DNA of 64,000 nucleotides from Dactylorhiza incarnata (taxonomy: Eukaryota > Streptophyta > Magnoliopsida > Asparagales > Orchidaceae): positions 5,843,112 to 5,907,111 of the forward strand of contig JAWHQI010000170.1 of NCBI GenBank assembly GCA_033032865.1, read 5' to 3'. Made by a program: the position numbers and the translations under genes. Under the pieces are notes generated by a model. It was not told the DNA's origin. It saw only the letters and a list, made by a program, of their open reading frames with translations, and made no database searches. Below, piece after piece: positions 155-63,936 of the stretch (positions are counted from its first letter, which is position 1; every line of letters starts with the position of its first letter).

Positions 155-548
155 TTGGTGTAGCAAGAAGCAGGACTCCATTTCCCTTTCCACCACGGAG
201 GCCGAGTACAAGACGTCGTCCTTAGCAGCTCAGGAATGTGTCTGGCTAAGGAGACTAGTGGAGGATGTGGACGAAGAGGTCAGCGGACCTACTGTGCTGC
301 GTGGGGACAACGAGAGTGCATTGAAACTGGTAGCCAATCCAGTTTGTCATGCAAGGACCAAGCACATTGAGCTCGAGCATCACTTCATCAGAGAGAAGGT
401 GCTAGGAGGCTTGATCGCTGTGGAGCATGTGCGGAGTGAAGACAACCTTGCGGACATATTCACAAAGCCCCTATCTGCGGGGCCGTTCCGGAGGCTTCGC
501 TCCTTGCTTGGTGTTGTTCCCGGAGTTCACTTCAAGGGGGAGTGTTGA
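155..548 (+). pseudogene. Ty1/copia RNase H tail, 5'-truncated
   Basis: This is the C-terminal end of a copia polyprotein, covering the RNase H region. The reading frame contains [18 protein letters not shown], then ALKLV, and ends ADIFTKPL...HFKGEC. That wording matches the same region of elements A and B in this window, so it belongs to the same copia family. Similarity starts abruptly near base 155, inside the SWCSKK motif. Upstream is AT-rich intron sequence, so the rest of the element is missing. The stop codon (TGA at 546-548) lies inside the first bases of the LTR, and the polypurine tract cttcaagggggag is part of the coding sequence. Not functional alone. Confidence 0.88.
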
Positions 549-1280
549 GTTTGTGAAGTGAGCTGTCGCCCGGCGACAGTGGCTGTCGCCCAGCGACAGT
601 GGGCGAGTATCATACTCGCCGCCGAGTAGGCATCTGCCTATAAATACAGGGGTACCCCCCCCCCCCTAAAGAGTATCCATTCTGAAAGTGACGAGTAGAG
701 ACTTCAGAAGTGGCGAGTATCATCAACTCTGAGCGAGTTAGAGATACCAGAGCGCTACCCGGCGAGCATCGGACTTGGAGTAAGTTCGGCAGGCGAGCAT
801 CGGACTTGGAGCGAGTTCGGCGAGCTCTCTAGAGCGAGTAGCGAGTAGAGGAGATATCGCCCGGCGACAGTGGATATCGCCCGGCGACAGCGAGGAGGAA
901 AGAAAGCGCGCGCGGCGAGCGTGCGAGTATCCTGGAGTGCGAACAGTGAGCTTGCGAGTATCTGGAGCGCGAGCAGCGAGCTTGCGAGGATCGGAGCTAT
1001 CGCCCAGGCGACAGTCAATATCGCCCGGCGACAGCGAGAAGCGAGCTTCTGTGGCGAGGAGCGAGTATTGGAGCGAGTATCACCATCCTGGTGTGCTCGG
1101 AAGGAGGAGCGGACCTTGTCCGTGACCAGAGTGTTACTTCTTTTGGCTGTTGTGATTCAAGTTGGATGCAACTTGTATTCAGCCGTGTGAATTTGTAATT
1201 GATTGCCTAGTTGAGAAATATAAATCTTCCTTGTCCATTGTTGGTTCACTTGATCGATAGCAGACCCAAAAAATTTAACA
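543..1280 (+). mobile_element. 3' LTR of the truncated copia element (family of A and B)
   Basis: The LTR begins TGTTGAG directly after the polypurine tract and ends near 1280 with ...TTTAACA. The TATA box is TATAAATA at 639-646, followed by a C-run at 657-668. Segments at 1128-1195 match the LTR of element A (ttcaagttgg, caacttgtattcagcc). The left part of the element is gone, so no target-site duplication can be tested. It lies in the last visible intron of the minus-strand AGAMOUS gene, in opposite orientation to that gene. Confidence 0.8.
563..1035. repeat. Palindromic tRtcgcc-ggcgaYa motifs in a copia LTR
   Basis: Perfect or near-perfect inverted repeats of about 17 bp occur at 563-579 (ctgtcgcccggcgacag), 583-599, 863-890 (two units) and 1005-1033 (two units). 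Between them are many GCGAGT or ACTCGC words. The first pair lies between the LTR start and the TATA box, and the rest lie downstream of it. Element A, a member of the same family, has a different motif (agcgc/gctagcg) in the matching positions. Element C, an unrelated gypsy element, has this same motif. Confidence 0.85.
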
Positions 1281-1341
1281 TGTTTTTCGTTTACTTTCTT
1301 CTTAAAATTTCAACACTACCGCCGTGCCAATTGGAGTCTTA

Positions 1342-1536
1342 GGCTTCGTTTGGTTCGGCTTATTTGCTCCGATGAATTTGGACAAAAACGTCATTGTCAT
1401 ATCAAACATTTTATGCTTATAACTAGTTTCTTTTTTTGATAATGGTAGTAACATTTGTCATACCAAACATACATTCTATGACAATGACGATTTTGTCCAA
1501 ACTCACCGGAGCAAATAAGCCGAGCCAAACGAAGCC
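1342..1536. mobile_element. Tourist-like (PIF/Harbinger) MITE
   Basis: A 195-bp element bounded by TTA on both sides (1339-1341 and 1537-1539). The terminal inverted repeats begin GGCTTCGTTTGG and end CCAAACGAAGCC. The inverted repeat runs at least 30 bp with one mismatch, and similarity continues inward through a ttggacaaaa / ttttgtccaa pair, so most of the element can fold back. The TTA duplication and GG-start termini fit non-autonomous PIF/Harbinger (Tourist) elements. It has no coding capacity. It lies in an intron of the AGAMOUS-like gene. Confidence 0.85.
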
Positions 1537-1652
1537 TTAATCTGCTCTGATATGGTACTAACGAAGCCCAAATATCTTTCCTTTCTTATGTCTGATGAAA
1601 CTGTAATGTTCTCTTTGGAACAATTTATAATGTGAGGACTTAAGGGGCTAAC

Positions 1653-1694
1653 CTTATTGCGCAGGTACATGTTATCAGTTTGTAGTTCCATCTC
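1653..1694 (-). CDS. AG-like: AGAMOUS-like coding exon 7 (42 nt, end of K domain)
   Basis: Fourteen codons reading [14 protein letters not shown], flanked by ...TTTTGTAG before it and GTTAGC after it on the minus strand. The 42-nt size and phase 0 are those of the family. Translation past the donor does not continue the family pattern, which supports the splice site. The following intron contains the MITE and the copia LTR, and the next exon is not in the window. Confidence 0.93.
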
Positions 1695-4600
1695 CTACAA
1701 AATAGCAAATAAGCATCAATTTCAAAGTAAACAAAAAAAAAACTAAGCTGTTAAAATGAAAAGTGTTCGCACCCTTTTCTGCATGTAGTCTATCTCAGCA
1801 TACAACAATTCATTCTGATAAGAGTCATAACCAAACACCAGAAATTAAGATTTTCATAAGACTAATTTTTGTTTGTTTTCGAGATCAAAAGACTCGAATT
1901 GTAAGTAGGATGAAAAACCTTCTTAGATCTTATTTTGTTGATGCCTTTCTCCAATCTTGTTTCCAGTTGCTTCAGGTCCCTCAGACTCATGGTGGCCAGA
2001 GAATCACCCATCAAATTTCTGCACGCATTAAGAATACATTCTGTAAGAAAACAATGCAGTTTCATTGAAAAACGATGAACTCAAAATCACTTGCACTAAT
2101 TACCTGTTGGAATTCTGTAAGCTGGCGATTTGCTGACGAAGTTTTGTGGCCTCTTGTTGGTAATACTTGAGAGATGGATGAAAATTAATAGAGATGCCAT
2201 CAAAATCACAATATAACTCTGATTGTGTACTCAGAATACGAAATTTCGTAGATCACGAGTGTAGATTGAAGGCTAGGTTGCATGTTACATTTAGGTGGAG
2301 AGACCAAGAATCAATGTGCAAATATATTCTCATTGCGCTCCCTCGGGCATACAGTATTGGGCCTCTAATATGTTGAACTTTTTTTTAATTGGGTGATGTG
2401 AAAGTAGTCCGCTGGGATGTCTAACCTACTTCGATATCATATTAAATATATGCATCTAACTTAAAAACAAATTGGTTGTAGGTGGAGGCCGGGGGCCTGT
2501 AATACGAAATTTTCCGAGTTTCCTGTCATGGAATTATATTTTCATCATGTTAAATGAACACCTCACACGAAAATTGCAGAAGATAGATCGTCATGATTTA
2601 TAGATGTCTTTTAGCTTACATTCTTTGCACATGGATTACACTATTTTTTCAAGCATTACAATTCAAAACTACAATTTTGAGCAATAATAGGACCACTTTT
2701 GACAAATTGGTAAAATATTATTTCTTACTCATAATTGTTTTCTTACTTATAAGTAACTATTTGATGAATATAATACTTTAATGATAAACTCAATTATAAT
2801 GGTATGACTATTTGAATATTCTCACCCTGAGTTAGGGTGAGGTTTGCATAATTCAAACTCCTGCCTAGACTCAATGATAGTGAATGTGGAATCCTCATAA
2901 TGAGGGTCCAGCTTGAATATGAGACATTATTCAGCCAAATGTGAACCTATCAAAATCCAAATACTTAAGCTAACGAATAAGGGTCACAACTAAAGAATAT
3001 ATTACATCTCGAACTCCTTGTGCCACTAAAGAATATATTCAACCTAATCTCGTGTAATTCAAAACAATTTCTCCGCTTGCGAGGGTCTCACACATATCTA
3101 TCACTATTTAGTTCTCTTAAAAGTAAGCTTTTGGCGGATAAGTCTCCGACACCGAGAGTCTCATTTTCATAACTTTGCTAAGTAGCCAAAATCAAAGTAC
3201 CCGTGCGATGGGTCCAAGATGAGCTTATGAAAATAGTTGAAATACTCCCATCTACCCAAAATCTTAAGCAAATGATGCTCAACTCCTTGTTTGAGTTTTG
3301 AAATGTGATTATTCAATCTAATCTCATGTCTATTCGAGGCCATCGCAGGTATGCAGATGATACATAGTTATTCTACATTGGAGGAGTAGCTGTGGGTTTA
3401 CCTTATGGATGTATAAACAAATGTTTTGATCTCTGTGATTATTTTTTAATAGAAGTTACTGAGTATCAAAACTTATTACGTGAAATTCCTTTTTTTTTAA
3501 TGAGTTGAGGAGGAATGAGCTTTAATTATTGGTGGGGAAGAGACAAAACAACTTCAGTTCATGTGAATCTTATCACTTTCACTCCCCCAGAGGAATAAGC
3601 TTGATGGGGTTTCCTAAATATAGTTCGGTCGAATTGGAGATTTTTCGCCGCGACATCAACCGACTCGCCGGTAAGATTCCAACGGGCTCAGCTCGCCCAA
3701 TTCCGAGTCTGTTTGGTCTCCCAATCGGACGCTCAAATGCCGATGCGCCCATGCACGCAATCTGCGCTGCACCCCTCCAAGAGCTCAAGCGCCGCACGAG
3801 TCCCGCGCGGCTCTACTCTGCGCACGGCACCGTGCGGTGCGTGGAACAGGGAGTGCGGCACTGTTCCGCCAGCGGAATAACGCGTGGCACTGCCGCGCAG
3901 GCCGCGCGACAATTGCCGCCCCAAATGGGGGCGTTGATTCAACGCCCCCATTGGGCGCTGACTTGGTCAGCTCCCTGTGCAGCGCTCCCCAATTTGGGAG
4001 TCGCACGACAGCTTCCGCGCGGGCCACGCGACATTTAATTGTCGCGCGACCCTTCCCCCCTTTTTGGTACAGTTTTCGACACTCCCCGACGCCGCGCTCG
4101 CCGCGCGTTCCTCGCCGCCCTCGCTACCCTCTCTCCCGACGCTTGTCGTCACCTCACGAATCCCGCCTTGTTCATCCCGACGCTCGCCGTCGCCTCCCAC
4201 CATGCGCTCATCACCGCGCTCTCCGCGCTCACTCCCGGATCTTGCCGTCTCCTCTCGACGCCCACCACGCTCACCCTGGCGCTCATTTTCGCTTCCCGAC
4301 GTCCTCCATCGTCTTTTGCCTCACGCTCATCACTGCGCTCGCCGCGCTCACTCCCGGCGCTTGCCGTCGCCTCCTGATGCCCGCCGCGCTCACCTTGGCT
4401 CTCGCCATCGCCTCCCGACCGCCGTCGCCTCCTGATCATGGGGGTGTGGAGAGTAAAAATTTTCATCATGAGGGTGCGGATTGTTAGATGTATTATATTG
4501 TGCTAGATGTATTATATTGTATAGTCTGGTGGTAGACCATCTTGGGCTCACCTCTAGGTGTTGGGATCACCCTAATCCGTGTATATATATGTAAACCTAT

Positions 4601-7600
4601 TGTTGAGTAAGGTAATTGATTCATTGTTTTCCTATCATGGTATCAAAGCGATAGGGTTTCACGCACGCGTCTTCCCCTTTTCGTCTCTCTGCCGATTGAC
4701 GAGCGTTCCTGCTGATCGTCTTCTCCAAGTCGGTCGGGCTCCTCATCCCGATCCCGATCGAGCCTGCTTGATCCCGTTCCTGATCGTTTGCCTGCTTCGA
4801 TCGAGCCTGGTTCATCGTTTCCCGCTCGCCGATCTTGATCGAGCCTGCTTCATCGTCGACGACAGACGTCTTCCGCGCTTCCTTGATCGACGATCTCCCT
4901 ACTTGATCGTTTTCCATTCTTCCTTGATCGACGATCTTCCCGCCTGCTTGATCGGCCCGTTCTTCCTGCGATCTGCCGTGATCGACGATCAGCCGGTCTA
5001 CGATCCTCCCGTGATCGACGCTGTTCTGGCTGTTTGGTATCAGCACCGATGTCTTCCTCGTCTCACTCCTCTGCCTTCCTCCAGAAGGCTGATGTCATCC
5101 TCGACGGGCGAAACTACAAGGCATGGTTCGCCACCGTCGGTGTGATCCTCCGCGGTCTCGATCTATGGGGTCGCATTGACGGCACCGAACCTGCTCCTGC
5201 TGCTCCTGCTGCTGCTGCTCCTGCTGCCACCAAGGGCTCCGACTTAGCGCGATGGCGCTCTGACGACTCTCGCGCGATTGTCGTGATCTGTCAGTCTTGT
5301 GAGCTTCCTATTCGGATGGCTGCCTACGAGCTCCCTACAGCAAAGGCGATGTGGGATCACTTGCGTCGTCTCTATCAACCGTCCAGTCAGGCCCTGCGCC
5401 TACTCTCTGTATCAGACCCTTGGCGTCTGCTACCAGCGTGATCGGTCTGTTCAGACCTTCTTTGCTGAGCTCCTAGATCTCTGGCGTCAGTGCGACGAGA
5501 TGGCTCCTTCTCCCTGTGCGACATGCCCTCAGTGTGTTGCCATCTCTCGGGATCGCGACTGTCAGCGCTTGTTTGAGTTTCTTATGCGCCTACGCCCAGA
5601 GTTCGAGTCCATTCGCGCTCAGCTTCTACACCGGCATCCCCCTCCGTCTCTCAGCGATACTCTGGCCTTGGTGATCGCTGAGGAGACTCGTCTCCACTCC
5701 TTGGACTCCACTACTTCTTCTGGTGGGATGCCTCATGCTGTTCTGGCTGCTCCCCAGCTTCCACCGCAGTCCTCTCTTGTCAGTACTCCTCTACTGCCCT
5801 CGTCAAGTTATAGTGCTCTGGTGCGCCCTGTTCCTCGTCCTCCGGCGCCCTCTTCGACTCAGTCTGGTGCTCCCCGTCGTTCATCTGTCCGCTGTCACTA
5901 CTGTCAGTGCCTTGGTCATGTCAAATCTGAGTGCCGCAAGCTTCAGAGAGCTCAGCAGTCTGGTCAGCAGCGTGCTCCCGGTGCTCCTTTCTCTGCTGTG
6001 GCACAGTCTCTCTCTATTTCTGAGCTTGCACAACAGATTGCTCAGCAACTCTCTCAGGGATCCTTGCCTTACTCTACTGTCTCAGTTCTTTCACCGGATG
6101 CTTCTGATGCCTCTACCTCTCAGCCGGCAGCTTCCGCCCCTTCAGGTATCTCTTCCTCCGACTGGTTGCTTGACTCTGGAGCCTCTTTTCATATGACTCA
6201 TGATGCCACACACCTCTCATCCTGCCAGCCCGTTTCCCCTGCCCTTAGTATCATGGTAGCCAATGGTACCATTCTCCCTATTACTAGTCGTGGCCTCCTT
6301 CATACTAGTCATTTTCATATCCCCGACGTTGCCTACATACCCAAGCTATCCATGAATCTTATATCCGTCAGCCAACTCACATCCCATGGTTGCCTTGTTG
6401 TTTTTGATGAGTTTGTTTGTCGTGTGCAGGATCGTCTGACAGGGACACTCCTTGGAGTTGGCCGTCGCCGTAGTGGGGTGTACGTTCTTGATCGCCTGCA
6501 TCTTCCTTCGTCGTCTCCGGCTGCTGTCACCTTTTGTCTTCCTTCGGTGGCCTTTTCTCAGTGGCATCACCGTCTTGGTCATCCCAGTGGCCCGCGCCTT
6601 GCGTCGCTTATTAGTCATGGTTTTCTGGGTCGTGTTTCTGTTGATCGGTCTCATTCTTGTACGGGTTGTAAGCTTGGTAAACAGCTCCAACTCCCTTATC
6701 CGTCTAGTGAGTCAAGGTCTTCGCGTCCTTTTGATTTAGTTCATTCTGATGTCTGGGGTCCCGCACCGTTTGTATCAAAAGGTAGTCATCGATATTATGT
6801 TATCTTTGTTGATGATTATTCTCGTTACTGCTGGATTTATTTTATGTATTCTCGTTCTGACTTCCTTCAGATATATGTTACTTTTTCTGCTATGGTGCGC
6901 ACCTAGTTCTCTGCTTCCATTCGCATTTTTCGTTCCGATTCTGGGGGGGAGTACCTCTCTCATGCTTTTCGAGACTTGCTTGCTACTCACGGTACTCTCC
7001 CTCAGCTTGCTTGCCCTGGTGCCCATGCTCAAAATGGCACCGCTGAAAGGAAGCATCGCCACATTATTGAGACAGCACGCACCCTTCTTATTTCCTCTCA
7101 TGTGCCTCCTCACTTTTGGGCTGAGGCTGTTTCCACTGCTGTCTATCTTATTAACCTGCAGCCCTCCACTTTTCTTCAGGGTCAGAGCCCTGGTGAGTGT
7201 TTGTACTCTCGACCTCCACGTTACACTCATCTCCGTGTTTTTGGCTGTCGGTGTTATGTTCTACTCTCTCCACGTGAGCGCACCAAGCTCTCTGCTCAGT
7301 CCGTACCATGTGTCTTTCTTGGATACAGTGTTGAGCACAAGGGCTATCGATGTTATGATCCTGTTGCTCGTCGTCTTCGGATCTCCCGTGATGCCACTTT
7401 TGATGAGTCTCACCCTTTCTTTGTGTCCTTCGTCCCCCCGACCTCGCACTCATCTGTGACTTCCTCCGATGTGCAGTTTCTCACTCTTCCCACCTCACCA
7501 CCTCATGTTCCATTCTCTCCACCGGTCTGTCCTCCTCCTCTCCCGGCGCCATCGGCCTCTCCGGTCTCCCTTCCCACCTCCTCCTCTGATACACTCGTCG

Positions 7601-10600
7601 TTCCCCTTCCACATCACTACACTCGTCGTCCCCCTCCTGTCCCCTCACCTCCAGTACCCCCCGACTCAGTGCCTGTCTCCTCCAGCGAGGTCCCTGTGGA
7701 TGATCCTCCTGTGCGTCGCAACCCACCTCGTGAGCGACGTCCTCCCGACCGCCTCAGCCTTGCTACACTACCTTTGGACCTGCCTGCTCTTCCTGCTACT
7801 ACCTGTGGTACTCCAGAGCCGACTTCCTATCGTGAGGCTGCCCAGATACCTGAGTGGCAGACTGCTATGTCTGCTGAGTTGGAGGCGCTTGAGCACACTC
7901 GTACCTGGGAGTTTGCTCCTCTCCCCCATGACACTGTTCCTATTACTTGCAAGTGGGTCTTCAAGGTGAAGACTCGCTCAGATGGTTCTGTAGAGAGGTA
8001 CAAGGCCCGCCTCGTGGCTCGTGGTTTTCAGCAGGAGCAGGGACGTGACTATGATGAGACTTTTGCCCCAGTTGCTCACCTGACCACGATCCGCACTCTT
8101 GTTGCTATTGCAGTTGTTCGTCGCTGGTCTCTGTTCCAGCTCGATGTGAAGAACGCTTTTCTTCACGGTGACCTTCAGCAGGAGGTGTACATGGTCCCTC
8201 CTCCCGGTCTTTCCTCTCCTCCAGGACTTGTTTGCCGCTTGAGACGAGCTCTTTACGGGCTCAAGCAGGCGCCCCGCGTGTGGTTTGCTCGTTTCAGTTC
8301 GGCCATTACTGCCGCCGGTTTTTAGCCGAGCCCGCATGATCCAGCCTTGTTTGTGCACTCCTCTTCTCGTGGCCGGACTCTTCTATTACTGTATGTGGAT
8401 GACATGATCATTACAGGTGATGACCCTACTCATGTAACTTTCGTCAAACATCACCTCCAGCAGCAGTTTCAGATGACTGATCTTGGACAACTGAGCTATT
8501 TCTTGGGCCTTTAGGTCACCTCTACAGACCGTGGTTTTCAGCTCTCTCAGCGACGTTACACATCAGACCTTTTAGCTCGGGATGCTCTCTCTGACTCTCG
8601 CACCGTGGACACCCCTATGGAGCTTCACCTTCAGTTACGACCGGATGATGTGGTTCCACTCTCTGATCCTACTCGTTATCGTCACATTGTCGGGAGCCTC
8701 GTCTACCTTACTATTACTCGGCCCGACATTGCTCACGCTGTTCATGTTTTGAGCCAGTTTGTGGGTGCACCTACCTCTGTGCATTATGGCCATCTACTGC
8801 GGCTGTTGCGTTATCTCCAGGCGACGATTTCACGTGGTCTCTTCTACTCCAGTAGCAGTTCTCTGCAGCTTCGTGCTTACTCGGATGCTACTTGGGCCAG
8901 TGATCCCGTTGACCGCCGATCTGTCACTGGTTTCTGTCTATTCTTGGGTACTTCACTTATTGCCTGGAAGTCCATGAAACAGACAGGGGTTTCTCGTTCC
9001 AGTACTGAGGCTGAGCTGCGTGCCATGGCTACTACTACTGAGGACATTATTTGGCTCCGCTGGCTCCTTGAGGATCTTGGTGTCTCTTCTCCGGATCCCA
9101 CTCCACTCCATTGTGATAACACCGGTGCCATTCAGATCACCTTGAATCCGGTGAAGCATTCTCTTTCCAAGCACATCGGGGTGGATGCTTTCTTCCTTCG
9201 TGAGCAGTATGGTCGGGGAACTCTTACTCCTTCCTTTGTTCCTTCTGAGCAGCAGCTTGCAGACTTGATGACTAAGCTGCAGACTCGGTCCCAACATGCT
9301 TATCTATTATCCAAACTCTCGGTGTATGAACCCCCGTGAGTTTGAGGGGGGGTGTTAGATGTATTATATTGTGCTATATGTATTATATTGTATAGTCTGG
9401 TGGTAGACCATCTTGGGCTCACCTCTGGGTGTTGGGATCACCCTAATCCGTGTATATATATGTAAACCTATTGTTGAGTAAGGTAATTGATTCATTGTTT
9501 TCCTATCACGGATAACCACACCCTTAGTGGCACAATTACCAATACGCCCTCCTCAGAAACTATAAAAATGGCCCTGGACCCTCATTTGAAGACAAATTGC
9601 ATTCCACACCAGAGAGAGCTCCTTCGAAGATTCCTCGGGATTCTCCTCTGACGCTTGAAGATCTGCTTCAACTCCTCGAAGATCTCCTTCGGGACTCGAA
9701 AATCTCACTTTCTTCTGAAAGACGACTCAAAGATCTCATTTTCTTCAGAAAGGCGACTCGAAGATCTCACTTTCTTACGGAAGGCGACTTGAAGTTCTCA
9801 CTTTCTTCTGGAAGGATACCTGAAGATCTCACTTGGCTCCCGGCTCCAAGTCCAAAGCTTCAGTTTCCGCATTTGTCATCTCAAAAGCCTTAGATCACGC
9901 TTCTCGGCCCTCCGCCTTCACCAACTGCAGCGCTTTCTAAGATCTCATTGTAACAAGCGGTGACATGTCATCTTCAGGAAACTACTACATGTAAAACTCA
10001 AAAAAATAGTGGAATTTGGTCGGGACTGATCCGGCCCCGTGGTTTTTTATCCTTTCAAAGTTTTCTACGTAAAAAGCAACTTTGTCAACCGTTGGTCTTC
10101 TCTGTGAATTGTTTGCGCGCTCGTCTAACTCTTACGCTAAGACGGTTCATTTCGGCCGAACCGTGAGAACGTCGAGCGACCCGCAACAAAGCTAAATACA
10201 CATTATGTTTCCATGCACCAGGAGTGTACAACCTCGGGTTCGCCCAGAGCCAGAAAACGGAATCAAGCCAGGGTCAAGCTCCAATAGGAAGAAGTCTAGC
10301 GCGGGGGCAAGCCATGTGCGACACCCCGGGCGAGAACGAACAGTGAGTGGGCCTCTCACAGACCACTCGCGTGTAGTGCCCTCGCACGAGAGCGAGCAAG
10401 AAGTAACTAGCGCGGCATCAGTCCTTCACGGACTACTCGCGGCGAGAGCCGCGCGAGCGCGAATAGGCCAAAGTAGCGAGTGGTACTCTCCCGGGCCACT
10501 CGCGGCAAGGGTTAAGCGAGCGGGTCGGGTAGCGAGTGGCGCGCTTACGGGCCACTCGCGAGTTGGTACTCGCCCAAGGGTCGGCGAGTGGTGCATGGAA

Positions 10601-13600
10601 GGACCACTCGCTCGGCAAAGGGGGCTAGAGGTGAATTTACCCCTCTGCCCCTGGTGGTCTGCCGTTTGTTCCTCCAAACAGCGTAGTTTGTCTGATAGCA
10701 GGCCAAATTGGGGTGCGTTTAGTAAAACCAAAAGGCGGAATTCCGCTATTAACAGACCACGAACAAAAAACTATAAATAGACCTTGAAGGGCACCTTGGG
10801 TGAGGATTCCAAACTCAGTACTCTGAGCTTCTTCTTCTTCCCTTGGTTACTTTGGTTTAGCTCTCCAGCTCTCCAAGGTGCCAAAGTCTCAGCTTTGGCT
10901 TGGGAGGGGAAGCGTTCAACGATCTTCCGGGTTTGTGGTGGGACCTCCTCGTTGTGACTAAGGTCTTCGTCTAGTTCCTAATCTCCAGTCTGTTCTTTCC
11001 GAGGGATCAGTAAGGGCTAGCTACCCCTCGACTTGTTGAGGGCCCGAGCTTCACAAGAGACCGAGAAATCGGTTTCAACAAGGAGCCTTAGTAACTACTC
11101 AACCATAAGGAGTGACCCAGGGATCTCTCTCTCTCTCTCCAAAACCTTGTTCTATCATCATAGGGATCGGAAAGGCGAACCCTATTAAACCACCGCACCC
11201 ATTTTCTATTCCAAAACCCTGGTCAATGATAGGAGAGGATGGGTCAATTGTAAGCATGCGTGGATCATCTTGATAGGCGGTGTGAGACTAATCTTGACAT
11301 GCCTTTTTTTGGTTCATGTTGGACCATCCAACATGCCCCTTTGCGTGAACCTAGCTCTGATACCATGTTAAACCACCGCACCCATTTTCCATTCCAAAAC
11401 CCGGGTCAAAGATAGGAGAGGCGGAGTCAATTATAAGCATGAGTGGATCGTCTGGGTAGAGGGTGTGAGACTATTCTTGACATGCATTTTTTGGTTCATG
11501 CCGGACCGTCCAACACACCCATGAGAATCCCACTTGAAACATCATAGCAAAAGCAGAGCCTAACATACTAATATTTGGATAGAAATCAAAATGGAAAATT
11601 CAAGCTAATCGATATATGGCCAAGTGCACCACTATACTAGGACCACACCACATTTGTAACTATATATTAAAAACAACCACATTTCATGAGCATCCACAAA
11701 CAATTTATAGAATCATGGTTGAATTAGTATCTTCTTTTTTGTTTCTTTGGGCATTCTTCCATTAAAATCATGCATCATTAGAGATGATGCGTATTCATAC
11801 AAGGCTCCTGCTCATTTATATGCATAAGAGGAGGTGGTTACTCCCCAGGGCCACTACCATGATGGGGGGAGAATGGGGGAGTGGGCAAGTCCACTTTCTC
11901 CATGGCCAACCGCCCTCGTCAAACCGCCCGCAACCGCCCGGTAACGCTACCGCGCGGCGCTGGTGCACGGTAGCGCGTGCGGTAGCGCGCAGGCCGCCCC
12001 TTCACGGGGGCGCAGCCTAACCGCACCCCTAGTGGGGTGCGGCCAAGCCGCACCCCCTTAGGGTGCGGCCAAACCGCACCCTTAGCGGGGTGCGGCCAAG
12101 CCGCACCCCTAGCGGGGTGCGGCCAAGCCGCACCCCCTTTGGGGTGCGGCCAAGCCGCACCCCCTTTGGGGTGCGGCCAAGCCGCACCCCCTTTGGGGTG
12201 CGGCCAAGCCGCACCCCCTTTGGGGTGCGGCCTAGCCGCACCCCTAGTGGGGTGCGGTCAAGACCCCTTCCCGTAAAAGGGTTCGGGGGTGTCCGCCCTC
12301 TCCAGGCTCGTTGTGCGCCCTTTGGGCCCCGGATTTCACTTGGAGCGCTCCCGCGCTCGTAACATGATCAGAACGCCTCACAAAGCGACCAGGACGTTTT
12401 CTCCGTTCATTGCACTCTCAGATCGCTTCCCCAGTTGCCTAGATTGCTTCTCCGTTCGTTGCGCGCTCAGAACGCTTCTGAGCGCGCTCAGCTCACTTTT
12501 TGTCTTTTCTGACTTCTCACATTTTGTCTTTCCAGCATGCTCACTTTTCGTCTTTCCAGTTTCTCAGATTTCAGGAACAACTTGTCGCCTTTTTTGCCTC
12601 CAACAAAACTGCCCAAACTGCCCGAACTGCCCGAACTGCCCGAGGGGCAAGATGGTCAATTACGAAAAATGGCGATCAGTGTGCTCTGAACCAGAAATTA
12701 CCGGGCTACCCCCGGCCAAAGCTATAAAAGGAGCCCCAGGGCTTCATTTCAGAGGAGTTGGCCTTCTGGACCCGGGAGAGCTTCTTGCAGACATTCGCGG
12801 AATTCTCCTTCGGACTCGAAGATTTCTTTTTTCCCGAAAGGCGACTCAGCGTTCTCACTTTTGTTCTCCAGGGTGTTCTCACTTTGGTTCTCCACCTTTC
12901 TCAGAAGGAGAAAAGACTTAGTTTTTCTGGAGGTGGTCTGTCACCTTCGGAATTCTCTCTCTCTCTCTCTCTTTCTCTCTATTATTGTTACGAGCAGCGG
13001 CCTGTCGCGCTCGACTTCTAAGTCTCAAATTGTAACCCCCCAGAAGATAGTGGAATTTTGGTCGGCACAGCTCCGACCACATGGTTTTTTACCCTTTCCG
13101 GGTTTTCTACGCTAAAAAGTCCCAGTGTAATCAACGAATCTCAAATTGACTGTCTGCGCGCTTGGTTCGCTCCCGAGCTAAGGTGGTTTAAGTAAACCGG
13201 TCTACCAAGAGCCCTAAGCGACCCGCAATAAGAGATATCACATTTATGAGTTAATATCGTTGTTCTGTCTATATATTAGAGTTCTTAGGTTTATGAGTAT
13301 TTGGCTCTATATGTTTAATCTCACATGGTCTAGCTGGCCTTGTAGTCCTTTAAATACCCTATAAAGGGATGAATAAAATGGACCTTATATTTTCCTTATC
13401 ATTTCAACATGCATAATAATGTTTGAGTAGATTTGATGATGCTATTTTAATGAAAGAAAAATACACTTACAAAAAACTCTTGTGCGAGCTTGAGGTAAAT
13501 ATATTTATGTTAGGTAATTTTACTGATACCATAGATGTTAATGTAAAAAAAAAAAGATCTTTTTGGGTGTTCATTGAGAAAATATGTGTAGAGGGAGAAA

Positions 13601-38383: not shown

Positions 38384-38419
<36 letters not shown>

Positions 38420-40159: not shown

Positions 40160-40163
40160 ATCC

Positions 40164-43371: not shown

Positions 43372-43379
43372 TATAAATA
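43372..43379 (+). promoter_or_regulatory. TATA box of element D 5' LTR
   Basis: Tataaata about 180 bp downstream of the 57-bp array. The 3' LTR has the same box at 47755-47762. Confidence 0.8.
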
Positions 43380-43739
43380 GGACCAAGGGGGCACCATTTG
43401 GAGGGATCTCTCATCCTAGGCTAGCTCTCTCCTTCTCCCTCTCCCTCCCCAAGTCTCTCTAGGGGGTGAGGAGAGGCTCCAGTGGTGCCCAAGCTTAGTA
43501 GTGGCTTGGGAGGGGAAGTTCCAAGGGGACTTCCGGGTACGTGGCGGGACCTCCCCGCTAAGCCCTTGGTCCAGTCCTTAGTTCCGACACCTTCAACCTA
43601 GAGCTCTCCCTTGGGGGGAGTAAGGGTTGGTCGCCCCTCAGCCTCGCTGAGGGCCCCGAACTCCACAGAGACCGAGTTGTCGGTTTCAACATTTTGGTGC
43701 GGTGAGCGTGGAGTGTGATCGATTCAAGAAACCCTCAAG

Positions 43740-55650: not shown

Positions 55651-56011
55651 TGTAAGAAGCAGAGCAAGCCCTGTCATATGGAGGAGGCTTGCTGAAGGGT
55701 TTGGTCTGTTGGAAGGAAAAAATGAATGCATTGTTGTGTGTATAAACACACACACATGAGTGACAGTGCACGGAGGACCCCCATGCCCCGCGCGATAGTA
55801 CCCTACCCGCCCCTGGCGGGCTTCCCCCCCCCCCCCCCCCCCCCCCCCCTCGCCCTCCCCCGACACTTACCCAGTTATTTTTAAAAAAAATTCCCACCCA
55901 GGTTATTTTTAATTTTTTTTTCTTTTTTTTTAATTATTTGAGCATTTTTTTAGAAATGTTAAAGAATACAAATTTTTGTATTATATTTTTAATTTTATTA
56001 AATATTTGTTT
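55651..56011 (+). other. Probable decayed 3' LTR of E, with a 26-nt C-run
   Basis: Begins tgtaagaagcagagc right after the coding end and a purine-rich ttgaggagaatg, as a 3' LTR would. I cannot find its right end or its partner. A run of C occupies about 55824-55849, and AT-rich sequence follows. Confidence 0.45.
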
Positions 56012-56579
56012 TGTTGACGCCAGGAAAATCCTAGGCTCCAAAATTCGGATCAATGCAGCCGAAGGCTACTCGCCCAGCAGTCCAACAAGATGACTTGGCT
56101 GGCAACGACGAAGAAGCTAGAAGAGCAACAAACAGGACCCCAAGTGCTGCAGCAGGGAGGTCCCACCACGTACCCGGAAGCTCAAGGGAGTCTTCCCCTC
56201 CAAAACCAAAAATGGTCGAGCTTGGTACAAGGAAGGCAGGGACCTGGCGAGTATCTCGCCTGAGGGGGTCAACCTCGTCCAAAAAGTCTTCTTTCTTGTA
56301 CCTCTGGGGGTCTATTTATAGACAAATTCTAGGGGGGGGGGGGGGTAGTTACCTGCCCATACTCGCCTCTGCTCGCCCAAGCTCGCCCCTTGTTCGCCAA
56401 GCTCGTCCCTTGCTCGCCAAGCTTGCCCCTTGCAAGGTCTACAAATAAGCGTCTCCTTAGGCATTTCTGATCTCGACGAATTCCGGGTGGTACACAATCC
56501 CCGCTTTTTTCGAGCTCGCTCGCGAGGTCGGAAAAACAATGTTGAACTCGTAGTTCAGAGAGATGGCACCAGACGATAC

Positions 56580-58375
56580 GCTGTGTGAGGTCCTTCTCAT
56601 AAGCGGAGCTCAACTAGAGGAGAAAAAAGAGTCGACACCTCGCCGGAGCCGAGCTCAACTGGAGGGGAGAAAAAGTTGACACCTCGCAGGAGCCGAGCTC
56701 AACTGGAGGAGGAGAAAAAGTCGACACCTTGCAGGAGCCGAGCTCAACTGGACGTGGAGAAGGGGTGACACTTCACATAATAGGTTTATCTGGATGTGGA
56801 GAGAAGATTGATACCTCACAGGAACCGAGCTCAACTAAGTTGGAGAAGAGGTCGACACTTCGTAGGAGCCGAGCTCAACTGGAGGTGGAAGAGAGGTCGA
56901 CACCTCACAGGAGCCGAGCTCAACTGGAGGCGGATACAAGGTCGACACCTTCTAGGAGCCGAGCTCAACTAGAGGTGGAGAGATGGTCGACACCTTCTAG
57001 GAGCCCAGCTCAACTAGAGGTGGAGAGAAGGTCGACACCTTCTAGGAGCCCAGCTCAACTAGAGGCGGAGAGAAGGTCGACACCTTCTAGGAGCCAAGCT
57101 CAACTAGATGCGGAGAGAAGGTCGACACCCTCTAGGAGCCGAGCTCAACTAGAGACGGAGAGAAGGTCGACACCTTCTAGGAGCCGAGCTCAACTAGAGG
57201 AGGAGAGAAGGTCGACACCTTCTAGGAGCCGAGCTCAACTAGAGGCGGAGAGAAGGTCGACACCTCGCAGGAGCCGAGCTCAACTGGAGGTGGATACAAG
57301 GTCGACACCTTCTAGGAGCCGAGCTCAACAAGAGGTGGAGAGAAGGTCGACACCTCACAGGAGCCGAGCTCAACTGGAGGCGGATACAAGGTCGACACCT
57401 TCTAGGAGCCGAGCTGAACTAGAGGCGGAGAGAAGGTTGACACCTTCTAGGAGCCGAGCTCAACTAGAGGTGGATACAAGGTCGACACCTTCTAGGAGTC
57501 GAGCTCAACTAGAGGCGGAGAGAAGGTCGACACCTCTCAGGAACCGAGCTCAACTGGAGACGGATACAAGGTCTACACCTTCTAGGAGCCGAGCTCAACT
57601 AGAGGCAGATACAAGGTCGACACCTTCTAGGAGTCGTGCTCAACTAGAGGTGGAGAGAAGGTCAACACCTTCTAGGAGACGAGCTCAACTGGCGGTGGAT
57701 ACAAGGTCGACGCCTTCTAGGAGCCGAGCTCAACTAGAGGCGGATACAAGGTCGACACCTTCTAGGAGTCGAGCTCAACTAGAGGCGGAGAGAAGGTCGA
57801 CACCTTCTAGGAGCCGAGCTCAACTAGAGGTGGATACAAGGTCGACACCTTCTAGGAGCCGAGCTCAACTAGAGGCGGAGAGAAGGTCGACACCTCGCAG
57901 GAGCCGAGCTCAACTGGAGGCGGATACAAGGTCGACACCTTCTACGAGTCGAGCTCAACTAGAGGCGGATACAAGGTCGGCACCTTCTAGGAATCGATCT
58001 CAACTAGAGGCGGAGAGAAGGCCGACACCTTCTAGGAGCCAAGCTCAACTAGAGGTGGATACAAGGTCGACACCTTCTAGGAGCCGAGCTCAACTAGAGG
58101 CGGATACAAGGTCGACACCTTCTAGGAGCCGAGCTCAACTAGAGGCAGAGAGAAGGTCGACACCTCGCAGGAGCTGAGCTCAACTGGAGGCGGATACAAG
58201 GTCGACACCTTCTAGGAGCCGATCTCAACTAGAGGCGGAGAGAAGGTCGACACCTCGCAGGAGCCGAGCTCAACTGGAGGCGGATACAAGGTCGACACCT
58301 TCTAGGAGTCGAGCTCAACTCGAGGCGGATACAAGGTCGACACCTTCTAGGAGCCGAGCTCAACTAGAGGCGGAG
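56580..58375. repeat. 45-bp satellite, about forty copies
   Basis: The unit contains gaagccgagctcaact-like gagccgagctcaact, then agaggcggagagaaggtcga and caccttctag. Two variants alternate irregularly at two positions: gagagaag or gatacaag, and ttctag or cgcag/cacag. The left end is more diverged, the middle more uniform. The plus strand is open over 56729-58177 as 15-residue repeats (STPSRSRAQLEAERR). There is no sign of a functional start. Confidence 0.95.
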
Positions 58376-58689
58376 AGAAAGAGTCATCCGAGGGGGCAAG
58401 TAGCCGGCTTGCTGGAGAAGGGCTTGGGCAGAGGCCTGGATTACGACAACTCCACAACTCGATGACTTCTTTTCACTCGAGGGAGAAAGTAACCGGTATG
58501 CAGGAGAGGAGCTCATGCAGTGACTCGCGCTAGGGCAACACCGCGCTGAAGGACTTCTTAATTTTCACCTGAAGGGGTGAGCAACTTCGGGCTAGGAGGG
58601 CGGCTTCCAACTTTACTCTAATAATCTCTCTAGGCGAATGAGAAGTACAATCGGGGGGTAGCTCGGCCAGCGTGCAAGGGGGGAGCTGC
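58376..58689. other. Decayed repeat and spacer of element J
   Basis: Contains cgagggggcaagtagccgg and cgagggagaaagtaaccgg phrases, probably degenerate monomers like those at 46780-47010 in D. No gene is seen. Confidence 0.5.
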
Positions 58690-61600
58690 TGTAAGACCCC
58701 ATTTTTTTTCGAACACTGGGTCTTAGGCCTAGAACCGCCGCTTTGCAGTGACCCTTTCACTCGGGAAGGTCACCACTACAAAACACCGATCCTGCCGGCC
58801 AAATCGATCACAAAGAAAAGTGCATTAAAGAAGACAAGTCCACAGAATCAACATGAAATATAAAACCATAAAGGTAAATGTCCACAGATAATAACTGAAT
58901 AAAAGATTGTTACAATAATAAAGAAGAAGGAAGGGCTCCTGCTCAGTACATCATGTCCTCACTACAAGATCACTCGCGGAAGCTAACTACTAATCACTCA
59001 CTGATCCTGAATCTGGTGCTCCTGTAATAGGTTGGCCCGCCTCCGTCTGCACCCGCATATGGTGCTGCTGCGTCTCCTCGATCTCCTAAAATGATATGGT
59101 CCACCGACCGTTAGTCAAAAAGACTAAGCCAATCCCCCACCCCTCCCCCGGTGACTCCTAGGCACTGAGCGGAAAGGATGAAGCGGAGGACAACAAGGGG
59201 TATAACAAAGAGCAGGTGACAGTGGTACAGGAAATGTTTCTACACTACACATGTGTATATATATAACTGAAGCAGTAAAAGAGCATAGTAAGAGTAGGTA
59301 AAGAGTAAGTAAAGTGCAGTAAGTAAAGACAATAGTAATAGAAAAGTAACCATTGATTTATAAGAATGCCCACACAAACCTATAGACCAAGGGGTCGTTT
59401 AGCAAGGCCTATCGTATAAGAAGTCCCATAACCGACTTATACGATAGGGGTAGGGGTTGAAATGCAATGTTGATGCTATGACATGCAGAGTTATGCAGTT
59501 TATGCTATGTTCATACAAGTGCAACTCACACACTTCGACTCTATGCGCATAGACCTTTAGTTCCCCCCTTTTTGGAGCTAGCAAGACTCTCAGGATACTC
59601 CCGTAGTGGCAAACGGAAGCGGTGGCCGGGTTGGGCCTCGCCCACCTCTAGGTTGGTATTCACACTACCCTACCTAGACCTATCGTACGCCTCAACGCAA
59701 AACCGCGGAGCATCTGCGTACTCTTACTGGCTGGACCACCAGACTTTCAAGGCTAAGTGCAAATTCCACACTTGCCGAGTCAACGTATTGACGTCGGTGT
59801 GAACGACCGCCCAATACCGGAGGCCCACCACCTTCATGCACATGCAACAAGTTCTACTACCTATCTTCGAGCCATAGGCTCCCCTGGCTAACCCGCCCGT
59901 TACCATAACCTTCCGAGCCACCGGCTCGCCGGACCAACCCGTCCGCACCAACGACATTACTGAGTCACAAGCTCACTAGACTATCTAGTCAGCTGCTACA
60001 ACCACCGAGCCTACCGCTCGTACAACAAAACCAACTAACCTCCCGTAACTACGGGGTGTGCGTGTGTGCGTTATTGAGTTAATCTTGTATAACAACTTCT
60101 TACTCCTACGACTTTTGGTTAATCTTGGACTTCCCGAGGATTACCCTGTAAGGGGCTCGCTACGGTACTAGGAACTGTAATGGGATGACACCCCAAAGTT
60201 TCCTTTCTCAAGACACTTAGTGTTGTTGGTATCTACCCATAGGAACACCCTCCTTGTTATTACACTTGAATTACCCCTAAGCGATTTATGACTTTCCAAG
60301 ATGATCTTTCGTCGACCCCGAGTGCAACTTACCTCTAACTCACCAAGCACACCTTTACCATCTATAATCCTTGATGACCATCACACCTTTTAAACTAAAC
60401 TAGGTAACCACTTACCTCCCATTACCTCCTAAGGATCCACTTGATTCTCAAATTTCACAATTTTACTGTACGCAGACCAAACTAATTATATGAAGCTCAC
60501 AACTAGAGGTACTCCAAATATTCATCCAACTGACCCAAGCTATTTACTGTATGTCTATCATGATGTTATAAGACTAATTCCAGAGAATCATATTTTTCCC
60601 TAATTAATTAATATTTAATTTAATTTCTCCAAACATTTGCCAAGTATGAAAATGATCATGAAGTGTAAGTAAATCTTATGATATGGCTCTACAAAAATTA
60701 TGATAAATCTATGATGATCAAATAACATCAGAAACAACATATCATATTTTTACAGTAAGAAGTTGTCCTTTAATTTAATTATTTATCACATATCCAAAAT
60801 AGTAGTTTTATGAAGGAACCACCAAAAAGATCAACACTAAAATTATGGGAAAATTACCAAGCTCTTGTATCCACCAGAAAAGGCTACTGACTAAGTTTCA
60901 GGATTTAAGGAAATCATTTTCTTACTAAATTAAATACTTTAAGAAAACCTCAAATTAAATGAATTGTGAAGTAGCCTACTTATTTAAGTCTTTAAAATTC
61001 TATAAAAATTCACAGAGCTCCCTAATGTTCAGAAAGATCATATCACCAATTTGCACAATTTAAACAAGAGTTTTGGACCCTCAAATATTTTCCTTTAAGT
61101 TTAAATCAAAACAAGTGCCTTGTGAAAGAAGTACTGATTAAATTATTTAATAAAATCCACAAAAATTACCAGAGGTCTAAACCGTGATTATAAGGGCACG
61201 ACCAAAGTTTCATCATCATCCAAGACATTTTAAGCATGTAAATGTTTCTTATACGAAGTTTCCCTAAAGGAGTTATGTCCTAATTCAAAGGGAATATTGA
61301 CTCCTAAAATTCTTATAAAATTACCCAGTGCCTATTTACACTCTATAAATCTATCCACCAAGTTTTATAACCATCAAGGGACTCTTGACCACATGGCCTT
61401 CACAAGGTCCTAAATGCACACCTAGGAATAGAACTAGAGTTCTAGGGCTTAACCACCTCTACACCACCCTATATTACTCATGGAGGTGTCTTAGGTGATC
61501 CGAAACCAGTTACCAAGGTTTCACTTCATGGTGATGAGTTTTGACCACCATACCCCAAGGTAAACACCATACCCTAACTTTGACCCTATTTGTCCTAACT

Positions 61601-62090
61601 TGGGTTTACAAAATACTCAAACAAAACAGTCCCAATTGGGCTGATAATTTTACCAAGGTCATACAGTAACCCTAAGGGGCACCCACCAAAATTTGGAGGG
61701 CATTGGAGGTCATTTAACCCACTAATTAATTATTAGATGATTTATGAAATTATTTCAAAACCTTAGAAAAAAGTTCTCCTAAAAATCTCATCTATTAGTA
61801 TGTTGTGTGGGTGCATATAAATAGCCTAGGTTTTAAATATCAAGGTCATAGCATCTACCAATAAAAAGATATGAAGGAAAGAGTGACTGCCCTACCCTAG
61901 GGATCAGTCCCACCATTTTAGCTCTACAGGGAGCTACAGTACTCCTTTTGGGGTGAAATCCATTTTAAAATAAAGTAGACCCTAAAGGCTACAACTTTGG
62001 TGTTGATCACGTTTTCTGTAGAGGGACCTAAGTATTTTTAATAATTAGATCTAGGTACAGCAAAATAAGTGACAGAAATTGCATAAACAT

Positions 62091-62101
62091 TTATTTATAT
62101 A
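62091..62101 (-). promoter_or_regulatory. TATA box of solo LTR K
   Basis: Tatataaataa on the minus strand, 12 bp downstream of the last Ytcgacga motif. It is the same arrangement as in the other LTRs of the window. Confidence 0.65.
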
Positions 62102-62112
62102 ACTGTTTCTGC

Positions 62113-62438
62113 GTTCGACGAAAATATTAAACATCGCTCGACGAAAGCAGACCAACTCTGCGTTCGACGATAATATTAAACATCGCTCGACGAAAGCAGA
62201 CCAACTCTGCGTTCGACGATCTTAACTGCGCTCGACGAAGGCAGAACAACTCTGCGTTCGACAAAATATTCGCTCGACGAATTCAAAGCATAACAACGCT
62301 CGACTAATACAGAGTTAAACAGCGCTCGACGAAAACCTTTCGTTCGACTAAATTCTATTATAACAGCACTCGACTAAAGTTGAACACCTCCCGTTCGACG
62401 AATTATTCGTTCGACGAATTTCTTACAGCGCTCGACGA
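62113..62438. repeat. Interspersed gYtcgacga array in LTR K
   Basis: Fifteen copies of tcgac, mostly as gttcgacga or gctcgacga, in about 330 bp at roughly 15-30-bp spacing. Copies alternate between gcgttcgacga and cgctcgacga contexts. The TCGA core is palindromic and CpG-containing. The intervening bases are AT-rich and poorly conserved, so the motif itself appears to be the conserved part. Confidence 0.92.
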
Positions 62439-63936
62439 AACAAATGAAATAACCGTAAACAATAATATTAAGATCCGATGGCTCTCCATCATCGTCCCCA
62501 ATCGTTGGATGGCTCGCGACAGCCCATCCTGGGCCTCTTTGCGGGGTGATTTCCCGGCCACCTACGCCTCTTTCCGGCCGGCCAATGCCACCACCACCTT
62601 CGTTGAGGTGGTGGCCGGCGATAGGCGTGGTTGGCCGGCCGGAGGTGGTCGGATCTAGTTTTTAGAGGAGGGAAAAGAGTACGAAATGTACTCTTTCGGA
62701 AACACAATCCGATCCCTATTGTGCACGGATCAAGTCCCGAAATATGAAAAGATCTAGCACTAAGGGAGGAGAAGAGGATCGGACCTGAGTGGGGGCTTGG
62801 TGGCGTGAATTCCGGCGAGTTGCCATTGACGGTGCTGGAGCTTTTGGTGCCATGCCGATCCGTGCTCCTGGTGCTCGATTTCTTCGGGGAAGAGGGGGGT
62901 TTCACTCCTTTCCAACCTCTGAAGATGTTAAAAGGGTCGATTGAGGCTAAGGGTGGGGAGTTACTCGGATTGTCGTTAATGGCCATAAGTGGAGATTTCG
63001 GTTACACTTAGGGGGGTGAATTGACCATCAATTAGGCCGGGAAGAAGCTGAAAACTTCTCCTCTCCCCAAGGGGAGATGAATGGAGCCATTAACTGCTCA
63101 GATTGAGGGGTTTCTCCTTCTCCTCCATTAACTCCCCCTTCTTTCTCTCTCTTCCAAACTGGGCTTTCTCTCTCCTGGCCGACTCTCTCCAAATTGAATG
63201 GCCACCCCAGCAGCATTCAATCCCCATTAGGTGGTGGACCACCTTAATTGGGTCCAGCCCAAGTGGATTGGGTCCAATTTGGGCAAATTAGATCATTTTG
63301 ACCTAAATTAGGGCAAGGGTAAATTGGTCAAATTGCAAGTCCCATGATGGGGCTTTTTGGTCAATTAGGCTCCTAGTACCCATACAAGGGTAGGGGCATG
63401 GTCAATTTAGCATGGTGGGGGCCAATTGACTTTAGTTGAGCTAGTTTGACCAATTTAGGGTTAAGGTTGACTTTAGTCAAATTGGCCTCTTAGGTTGACC
63501 CCAATGGGTCACTGGTGCTTCAAGGAGACCTCTAATGGGTTAGGGATGATATGGTGGGGTCAAGGATCAAGGTGGGGCCCTAAAGTCCAACCCTAGGTTT
63601 GGTATCTGAAAATTGCTATTTGCAGACCACTTGGGTTTTCTCCTTCTCACCTATGTTCACAAGGTCTTGAGCTCTTCCTATGGTTTTGTCATAACCTAGT
63701 CATGACAAAACCAACTTAGGGGTCTAGCTGTTTGGGGGATGTTACAGCTGATCTCGACCGTAAGTGCAGAGGCTTGGTCTTAGGAGGACGCATTAAAAAC
63801 CCGGTATACTGTCCCATCACCCGCTCTGAATGTTATGAGAGCTAAACAGGATACTCGTCCTCTAACCCACTCGTGACGTGAATCGATGACCGCTTCGCTA
63901 GAATTTTATCTCATTGCCTGGATAGGGCATGCCTCT

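Follow-up and report, generated by a model that had tools for sequence, protein, structure and literature searches.

One Palindromic Box in Two Spellings in the Long Terminal Repeats of Distant Retrotransposon Lineages of Dactylorhiza incarnata

Introduction

The stretch of DNA analysed here, called the window throughout, comprises 64,000 nucleotides of the orchid Dactylorhiza incarnata (assembly GCA_033032865.1, contig JAWHQI010000170.1, positions 5,843,112 to 5,907,111 of the forward strand). It lies at the end of the contig and consists of nested plant long terminal repeat (LTR) retrotransposons, named here by letter (Table 1); a 63-base run of G (63938-64000) closes both the window and the contig. 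The subject of this study is the inverted repeats found in the unique 3' regions (U3s) of these LTRs, upstream of the TATA box. Of particular interest is one palindromic box, CTRNCGCC-N0-2-GGCGNYAG, which occurs in LTRs of both Ty1/copia and Ty3/gypsy elements.

A first-pass annotation, made from the letters of the window, held that nearly every long LTR carries a GC-rich array of inverted repeats upstream of its TATA box, each with its own motif. The arrays were read as a shared, fast-changing regulatory or anti-silencing module of which no description was known. Such a layout has in fact been described for the genus Sirevirus. According to PMC2829016, Sirevirus LTRs contain palindromic repeated motifs (RM), with up to 32 copies per element and nearly all with a CGG-CCG core. 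Their clusters form CpG islands, the TATA box follows the island at a mean distance of 37 bp, and more copies lie upstream of env. These motifs had been described as peculiar to the genus; classic Ty1/copia was reported to lack them (Bousios et al. 2010, PMC2829016). In maize, small RNAs map to Sirevirus LTR palindromes (PMC5311732 and PMC10760457), and PMC10760457 reports that Ty3 elements are generally without an obvious structure peak and that the main copia palindrome is also found in Helitrons. Thus, the layout is already known for Sireviruses, and what is new here is one box, with two spellings, that is common to distant groups of elements.

The LTR Elements of the Window

By Pfam, C is a Ty3/gypsy element (RVT_1, RT_RNaseH, Integrase_H2C2, Retrotrans_gag) and A, B, and G are Ty1/copia elements. 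F is assigned to Ty1/copia by homology: it represents the 3' end of an A/B-clade element on the plus strand, with an internal end homologous to A. H1, H2, H3, and J are single LTRs recognised through homology downstream of the TATA box, and K is probably a 5-kb gypsy LTR. The TATA coordinates assigned earlier to F, A, B, C, D, H1, H2, and H3 are correct; A and B are read from the minus strand. When the comparison is limited to named relatives that cover 96% or more of the C polymerase, Platanthera proteins are the most similar (70-72%; other Platanthera rows 59-76%), while the top bit scores belong to partly covering proteins of Solanum and Tanacetum.

Inverted Repeats Upstream of the TATA Box

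Perfect inverted repeats (arms of at least 7 bp, loop of at most 12) upstream of the TATA box were compared with 300 dinucleotide shuffles in 12 window LTRs, and eight of these show an excess. The observed coverage was reached by none of the shuffles in F, the 5' LTRs of A, C, and D, and H1, H2, and H3, and by two in J. There is no upstream excess in the 5' LTR of B (58/300 shuffles reach the observed coverage), K-pre (155/300), L (300/300), or G (300/300). The short LTR of G had correctly been described as lacking an array. The other three had been listed as carriers: B has a direct-repeat array of GGCGAGT; the TCGACGA repeats of K (62108-62440) lie downstream of its named TATA box at 62091, inside the apparent LTR 58691-63746; and at L, TATAAATG is present at 18730, but no LTR pair was found there in the window. 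When distinct arms are counted, which lowers the effect of tandem repetition, the excess persists in F, C, H1, and H2 (0/300), A (3), H3 (6), and D (9), while J is not in excess (281/300). Downstream of the TATA box, four of the 12 LTRs (C, D, A, and K) are at or below 15/300.

Several control sequences also exceed their shuffles, namely the coding regions of A and B and the internal region of D (0/100 each) and one host stretch (host2, 3/100), while the coding regions of C (10/100) and G (57/100) and host stretches host1 (19/100), host3 (6/100), and host4 (82/100) do not. An excess over shuffles is therefore weak evidence alone, and it is the size of the coverage that carries the case. Inverted repeats cover 7.4-55% of the seven clear U3s compared to 0.6-4.1% of the coding and host controls, with 13.7% in the internal array of D. 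Across the window, coverage is 10.6% upstream of the TATA box, 4.2% downstream, 2.8% in internal regions, and 2.6% in host sequence, figures that are inflated by tandem arrays and by the presence of two LTRs per element. When the mask was shifted circularly 650 times, the observed result was never reached. The contrast persists for GC-rich repeats in 200-bp windows with a GC content of at least 0.5, where their coverage is 9.0, 3.2, 1.2, and 1.0%, respectively.

The location is less strict than the annotation had it. Copies are also found downstream of the TATA box (F and A) and internally (D, 43967-44327), and the distance from array to TATA box ranges from tens of bases (F and A) to approximately 500 (C and H2). 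CpG content, proposed as a recurrent mark, does not distinguish the U3s: the observed/expected ratio is 0.78 upstream, 0.81 downstream, and 0.62 in host DNA, and among individual U3s it is at least 0.8 in F, A, C, H1, H2, H3, and L, 0.46 in B, and 0.54 in D. A recurrent cis-module upstream of the TATA box that changes rapidly between related elements is supported. Within each of the clades A/B/F, D/H3/J, and H1/H2, sequence downstream of the TATA box can be aligned in part (66-83% identity), whereas a blastn comparison of the U3s at E 0.01 yields nothing but 11 bp between F and A.

The same measure was applied to a contiguous 200-kb sample from another contig. From 178 hits, satellite and tandem hits excluded, 24 candidate LTR pairs were assembled by hand, and five were dropped because of unclear ends, nesting, or satellite, leaving 19 usable LTRs. 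Five of the 19 have one end without TG or CA nearby, strand was judged by eye from the primer-binding site (PBS) and polypurine tract (PPT) with one remaining unknown, the TATA box was chosen automatically and is weak in several, and the set includes LTRs with mutual relationships. An excess (at most 10/200 shuffles) is found upstream in seven of the 19 and downstream in seven; for GC-rich repeats only, the figure is four on either side. Where the TATA box is strong (8 or 9 of its 9 letters) and the strand is known, a post hoc subset, the excess is seen upstream in five of seven LTRs by either measure and downstream in two of seven. In the sample, 12 of 19 LTRs have no upstream excess of all inverted repeats. 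"Nearly every long LTR" was too strong a statement, and in the window B, G, K, and L contradict it; the pattern is widespread without being universal, and the sample shows no clear tie to the upstream side.

A Box Shared Between Superfamilies

Spellings of the box CTRNCGCC-N0-2-GGCGNYAG are found in the LTRs of A and F (classic Ty1/copia), of C (Ty3/gypsy), and of four of the seven Sirevirus-like LTRs in the 200-kb sample, often in tandem with a pitch of about 20 bp (18-21 bp). Exact half-sites number eight in F, five in A, nine in C, and 3, 4, 6, and 10 in the four Sirevirus-like LTRs, where 0.10-0.53 are expected from letter shuffles; K has one. Four host stretches have none and the internal regions of A, B, C, and G have 0-2, while the internal region of D has eight, six of which disappear under a tighter pattern. 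With the tighter pattern, 37 of the 45 listed half-sites in the window fall in the LTRs of A, F, and C (manual tally). Like F, A carries boxes downstream of its TATA box as well. The claim that each LTR has its own motif does not hold for A, F, and C.

Direct descent of the box in C and F was considered and rejected, as their LTRs have no blastn match outside the boxes, the best match being 43 bp at 86%. Between Sirevirus 5107187 and F, 28 bp are shared, and between Sirevirus 5117605 and A, 44 bp. A common box across such distant groups suggests dependence on the same DNA-binding factors.

In the 3.27-Gb genome, the looser pattern CTNNCGCCN{0,4}GGCGNNAG occurs at 83,364 places, compared to 580 for the reversed control. 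Sixteen loci from this list comprise seven in a Sirevirus LTR or LTR junction, three in Sirevirus gag, two elsewhere inside Sireviruses, and one in a C-family LTR; of the remaining three, one lies where a C-like pol ends and an LTR starts nearby, one is near an H-type downstream region, and one is unmatched. Fifteen of the 16 resemble LTR-element sequence somewhere within their 1.4 kb. Among 54 listed sites of the looser pattern, the loop is 0 in 25, 1 in 21, and 2 in eight. Loops of 0-2 in all of these sites, together with the pitch of 18-21 bp, are consistent with dimeric proteins bound along a single face of the DNA.

Two Spellings of the Box

The third and fourth letters of the half-site are either GT or A followed by A, C, or G (the AN type), with AT accompanying both. 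Among 32 LTRs or loci with at least two half-sites, 12 are GT, 20 are AA/AC/AG, and none is mixed, while shuffling of the labels gives a mean of 25 mixed units and a minimum of 17; this typing disregards units below two half-sites as well as the spellings GA, GC, and GG. Both spellings occur within each lineage. Sirevirus LTRs include four GT and ten AN units. In the C family, the window copy and loci L030-L032 are GT, while L041, 89% identical to window C, is AN. In the copia clade, F is GT and A is AN, with one example each.

Genome-wide, GT/GT sites number 14,812 (2 in the reversed control) and AG/AG sites 9,884 (0 in the control), taken as abundances. Eight loci from the GT/GT list, picked for loop variety, fall in three C-family LTRs (one also with a piece of Sirevirus LTR), two Sirevirus LTRs, and three Sirevirus internal regions. 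Sites that pair GT with A[ACG] number 322 + 317 = 639 (0 + 1 in the control), which is about 2-4% of the roughly 18,000-28,000 expected under random pairing when shares are assumed for the other spellings. Some of the listed mixed sites are 164-165 bp apart, like the tandem repeat of C. The exclusivity of the spellings is, therefore, strong but not absolute.

Boxes Inside Sirevirus gag

Six Sirevirus gag copies carry a pair of boxes with a spacing of about 20 bp. The pair has the same position in all six, on the 5' side of the zinc knuckle, and some of its half-sites are degenerate. Where readable, the half-sites are GT or AT in element 5107187 and locus L029, and AN in the other four copies. 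The LTR is known for two of these copies, and in both it agrees with gag: GT in 5107187 and AN in 5025460. In the 200-kb sample, all 11 exact boxes lie in Sireviruses, seven in LTRs and four inside the same elements, with matching type, and in the four box-bearing Sireviruses of the sample, the internal boxes or half-sites are of the same type as those in the LTR. A protein search with a 193-aa piece of gag, made for the gag box in other species, returned 18 candidates, none significant.

Palindromic boxes in the gag reading frame are present at L020:185, L029:718-753, L039:652-687, L047:685, and L050:675. In one Sirevirus LTR (L019:7187-8483, element 5107187), a second palindrome family, CTGTCGGAATTCCGACAG and its variants, alternates with the GT box.

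Relation to Known Systems

The sampled elements 5107187, 5150899, and 5117605 (minus strand) fit both Sirevirus junctions, AGGGGGAG-AT-TG and A(T/G)TGG-TATCAGAG. In 5025460, the PPT fits and the PBS has diverged; for all four, the label Sirevirus is based on these junctions. A, B, and F are different. Their PPT AGGGGGAG is directly followed by TG without the Sirevirus AT/TG attachment site. The 5' junctions of A and B read CA|TGGTATTAGAGGG and CA|TGGTATCAGAGGG, in place of the Sirevirus CA/ATTGG/TATCAGAGC (the 5' end of F is outside the window), and A and B measure 5.6-5.8 kb without nested inserts, compared to a Sirevirus mean of 10.55 kb. The PPT abutting TG in A, B, and F, the PBS abutting CA in A and B, and the length of these two elements show that they are not Sireviruses. 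Sireviruses also have several PPT copies in a long linker; A contains two copies of the AGGGGGAG octamer and B five, with one copy in each near the 3' LTR and the others at least 1.5-3.3 kb away. C as a Sirevirus was ruled out by its Ty3/gypsy pol.

The Sirevirus boxes of PMC2829016 resemble those described here in being palindromic, CpG-rich, and numerous, in lying in the upper half of the LTR and upstream of a conserved TATA box, in differing in motif from element to element, and in being accompanied by internal copies. The differences are that here they extend to classic copia (A and F) and Ty3/gypsy (C), have a CGCC-GGCG core, are common across lineages, and have copies in the gag frame. 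The layout of a high-copy palindrome upstream of the TATA box is found in A, C, F, D, and H1-H3, with a low copy number in the short U3s of A and F. The CGG-CCG core is not found in A, C, or F, while H2 (GGTGCGGCC..GGCCGCACC), read by eye, has CGG and then CCG. Maize Sirevirus palindromes (2016, Genome Res, known here through passages of PMC5311732 and PMC10760457) are likewise palindromes of the LTR cis-region with predicted structure and small-RNA hotspots; however, Ty3 elements of maize generally lack a structure peak, according to the latter. PMC3902901 describes G-quadruplex-prone sites in plant LTRs, which are also GC-rich features up- and downstream of the promoter, but consist of G-run motifs rather than inverted repeats. 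Among the listed papers on LTR palindromes (20 of 4,160 in one listing), which leave out most subscription papers, no title or abstract opening reports one palindrome common to copia and gypsy LTRs.

What the Boxes May Do

Inverted repeats in excess, a box shared between lineages, strong but not absolute exclusivity of spelling, fourth letters that do not pair, and copies in gag are all directly seen. From these we infer protein binding, a host origin of the factor, and an enhancer effect. The U3 arrays would be enhancer boxes, that is, clustered palindromic sites for probably dimeric host DNA-binding factors of two specificities, a reading based on sequence to which a probability of about 0.55 is given. 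Sequence-specific factors, probably dimeric, would bind the clusters in U3 and increase transcription from the LTR promoter; the spelling of the box would adapt to two host factors, or to two specificities of one factor; and some boxes would pass between lineages by recombination, as a second source of their spread. A bolder version is held tentatively, at odds short of even: Sireviruses, classic Ty1/copia, and Ty3/gypsy, three lineages of two superfamilies, would use one box, each element would keep essentially to one of two mutually exclusive spellings, in the LTR as in the internal copies, and all lineages would have made concerted switches of spelling, apparently in step with two specificities of a shared trans-acting factor. 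We know of no plant factor with a CTRNCGCC half-site, although no search was made for one.

Several points weigh against the enhancer-box reading. Firstly, upstream and downstream excess are equally frequent in the 200-kb sample, and the boxes are not restricted to the upstream side of the TATA box. Secondly, the half-site is absent from three of the seven sampled Sirevirus-like LTRs and from B, D, G, H1-H3, and J, and the evidence from the copia clade consists of F and A only. Thirdly, the 43-bp match between C and F takes in the spacer, so that some of the sharing may be due to exchange between elements and require no convergence. Fourthly, the 32 typed units are not independent of each other, were taken from the contigs listed first, leave aside GA, GC, and GG half-sites, and include L029-L036, chosen by their GT pattern; since GT and A[ACG] are two letters apart, mutational distance may explain part of the exclusivity, and three listed mixed sites have a loop of 3. 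Finally, copies of amplified families inflate the genome-wide counts, which are not independent and serve as abundances, not as test statistics; they covered the shared box, not the motifs of D, H1-H3, and J.

The best placed of the alternatives, though itself unlikely, is a neutral one, in which an unconstrained U3 accumulates palindromes through template switching in reverse transcription, tandem expansion, and exchange between co-packaged elements, with no need for a factor. Tandem arrays are common in these U3s, C and F have a box dimer and its spacer in common, and the turnover of U3s within clades is nearly complete, all of which speak for it. It gives a poor account of the unmixed GT and AN spellings in 32 units, of loops that are nearly always 0-2, and of the same spelling in gag and LTR of elements 5107187 and 5025460.

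Structure at the RNA level is next and also improbable. Hairpins in the 3' U3 and in gag would serve packaging or dimerisation of the transcript, or yield small RNAs for recognition by the host, and the genomic RNA would indeed contain all of the boxes, whether they lie in the 3' U3, in gag, or elsewhere inside the element. Strong 110-nt folds are predicted in several U3s, with minima of -99.6 kcal/mol in D, -97.3 in H2, and -55.2 in F, but the coding sequences of A and C are also predicted to fold to -45.7 and -45.9 kcal/mol. The small-RNA hotspots at maize Sirevirus palindromes (PMC5311732 and PMC10760457) point the same way, yet small RNAs may be a by-product. The fourth letters of the two arms vary independently and are often unpaired. 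Among 43 listed CTAN sites, ten are symmetric compared to 13.4 expected with independent arms (p 0.32), and AG/AC sites, in which these letters do not pair, number 14,096 + 14,061 = 28,157 in the genome (7 + 4 = 11 in the reversed control), far more than AG/AG. It is thus the half-site that is conserved, not an RNA or cruciform stem, and conservation of an RNA stem as the main driver is disfavoured.

Least probable is an anti-silencing role, in which the boxes would be the target of a factor, either hijacked or encoded by the element, that takes methylation away or blocks it, by analogy with VANC and its tandem-repeat targets on VANDAL transposons: PMC5735166 presents a similar picture of sequence-specific, often tandem motif clusters that differ between related elements, the boxes bear CpG, and Sireviruses have them in both LTR and internal regions, but the VANC binder is known and element-encoded, no candidate factor turned up here (no search was aimed at one), and a box common to copia and gypsy would require a factor acting across lineages.

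If enhancer boxes with two spellings do drive both copia and gypsy elements, they would point to a specific, testable host factor on which much of the genome's transposon load depends, and would show directly how distant transposons have adapted in parallel to one regulator. The non-pairing fourth letter makes the choice between protein site and RNA hairpin decidable for LTR palindromes.

Other Arrays and Features

The arrays of D (57-bp), H1, H2, H3, J, and K are genuine but consist of different motifs. The half-site (A/T)CTCGCC, with 11 occurrences in B, 16 in D, four each in H3 and J, and three in F (0.2-0.9 expected), is possibly a second motif shared between copia (B and F) and the D/H3/J clade; it is nearly absent from the 19 sampled LTRs.

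Table 1. LTRs, boxes, and arrays of the window
Feature	Position	Strand	Description
F LTR	543..1314	+	Classic Ty1/copia, A/B/F clade; TATA 639; 3' end approximate; AGGGGGAG then TGTTGAG at junction
F box pair	563..600	+	GT-type, 20 bp apart, upstream of TATA; CTGTCGCCCGGCGACAG exact at 563-579, second with one imperfect arm
F perfect inverted repeat	602..620	+	GGCGAGTA-TCA-TACTCGCC, just upstream of TATA
F further box dimers	853..1041	+	Downstream of TATA
H1 LTR, U3 part	3640..4481	+	Start approximate; split by G insertion (CGGAT flanks both sides of G); palindrome GGGGGCGTTGATTCAACGCCCCC at 3927
G short LTR	4482..4640	+	No array (negative case); pairs with 9353-9511
H1 LTR, remainder	9512..10202	+	TATA 9561; homologous to H2 downstream of TATA
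H3 LTR	10225..11081	+	D/H3/J clade; gcgagtgg/ccactcgc pairs; TATA 10772
H2 LTR	11820..13241	+	Ends approximate; 27-bp hairpin array 12007-12262, GGGGTGCGGCCAAGCCGCACCCC; TATA 12723
A 3' LTR	26396..27071	-	Classic Ty1/copia; TATA near 26988; 94% pair with 40489-41168
C 5' LTR	30947..33097	+	Ty3/gypsy by Pfam of pol; TATA 32563; 96% pair with 37999-40160
C U3 boxes	30989..32070	+	GT/AT-type; exact 31010-31026, 31154-31170, 31174-31190, 31892-31908
C 3' LTR	37999..40160	+	Same kind of boxes as 5' LTR; exact 38043-38058, 38062-38078, 38206-38222, 38226-38242
A 5' LTR	40489..41168	-	AN-type half-sites
A exact box	41117..41132	-	CTAACGCCGGCGCTAG (plus-strand spelling), upstream of A's TATA
B 3' LTR	41584..42393	-	GGCGAGT direct repeats
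D 5' LTR	42627..43691	+	Gag-only element; 57-bp hairpin array 42718-43146; TATA 43372; 98.9% pair with 47011-48074
D internal array	43967..44327	+	45-bp inverted repeats GGCGAGTGGGG..CCCCACTCGCC; not upstream of TATA
B 5' LTR	52009..52819	-	Without inverted-repeat excess
J LTR	56010..58651	-	D/H3/J clade; ~40-copy 45-bp array 56602-58379, AGAAGGTgtcgACCTTCT in many copies; TATA near 56320
K	58691..63746	+	Apparent 5-kb gypsy-type LTR, TGTAAGACCCC..GATGTTACA; no pair in window

J, a minus-strand LTR with a 45-bp array, was absent from the first-pass list; it is homologous to D and H3 downstream of its TATA box, and the array lies upstream. The K motif TTCGACGA (62108-62440) recurs beside an H-type LTR in L044:480-700, together with an AN box. 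The H2 palindrome GGGGTGCGGCC..GGCCGCACCCC is found in a sampled LTR pair of unknown strand (L015/L016, 5069590-5074085), which aligns to the H2 array 12007-12262 over about 170 bp at 73%. The gag-only element D also holds an 18-copy, 78-bp satellite-like array (45379-46781) that is 99% homogeneous, and pieces of a different tandem array are present in L026-L028, between 5177400 and 5197090.

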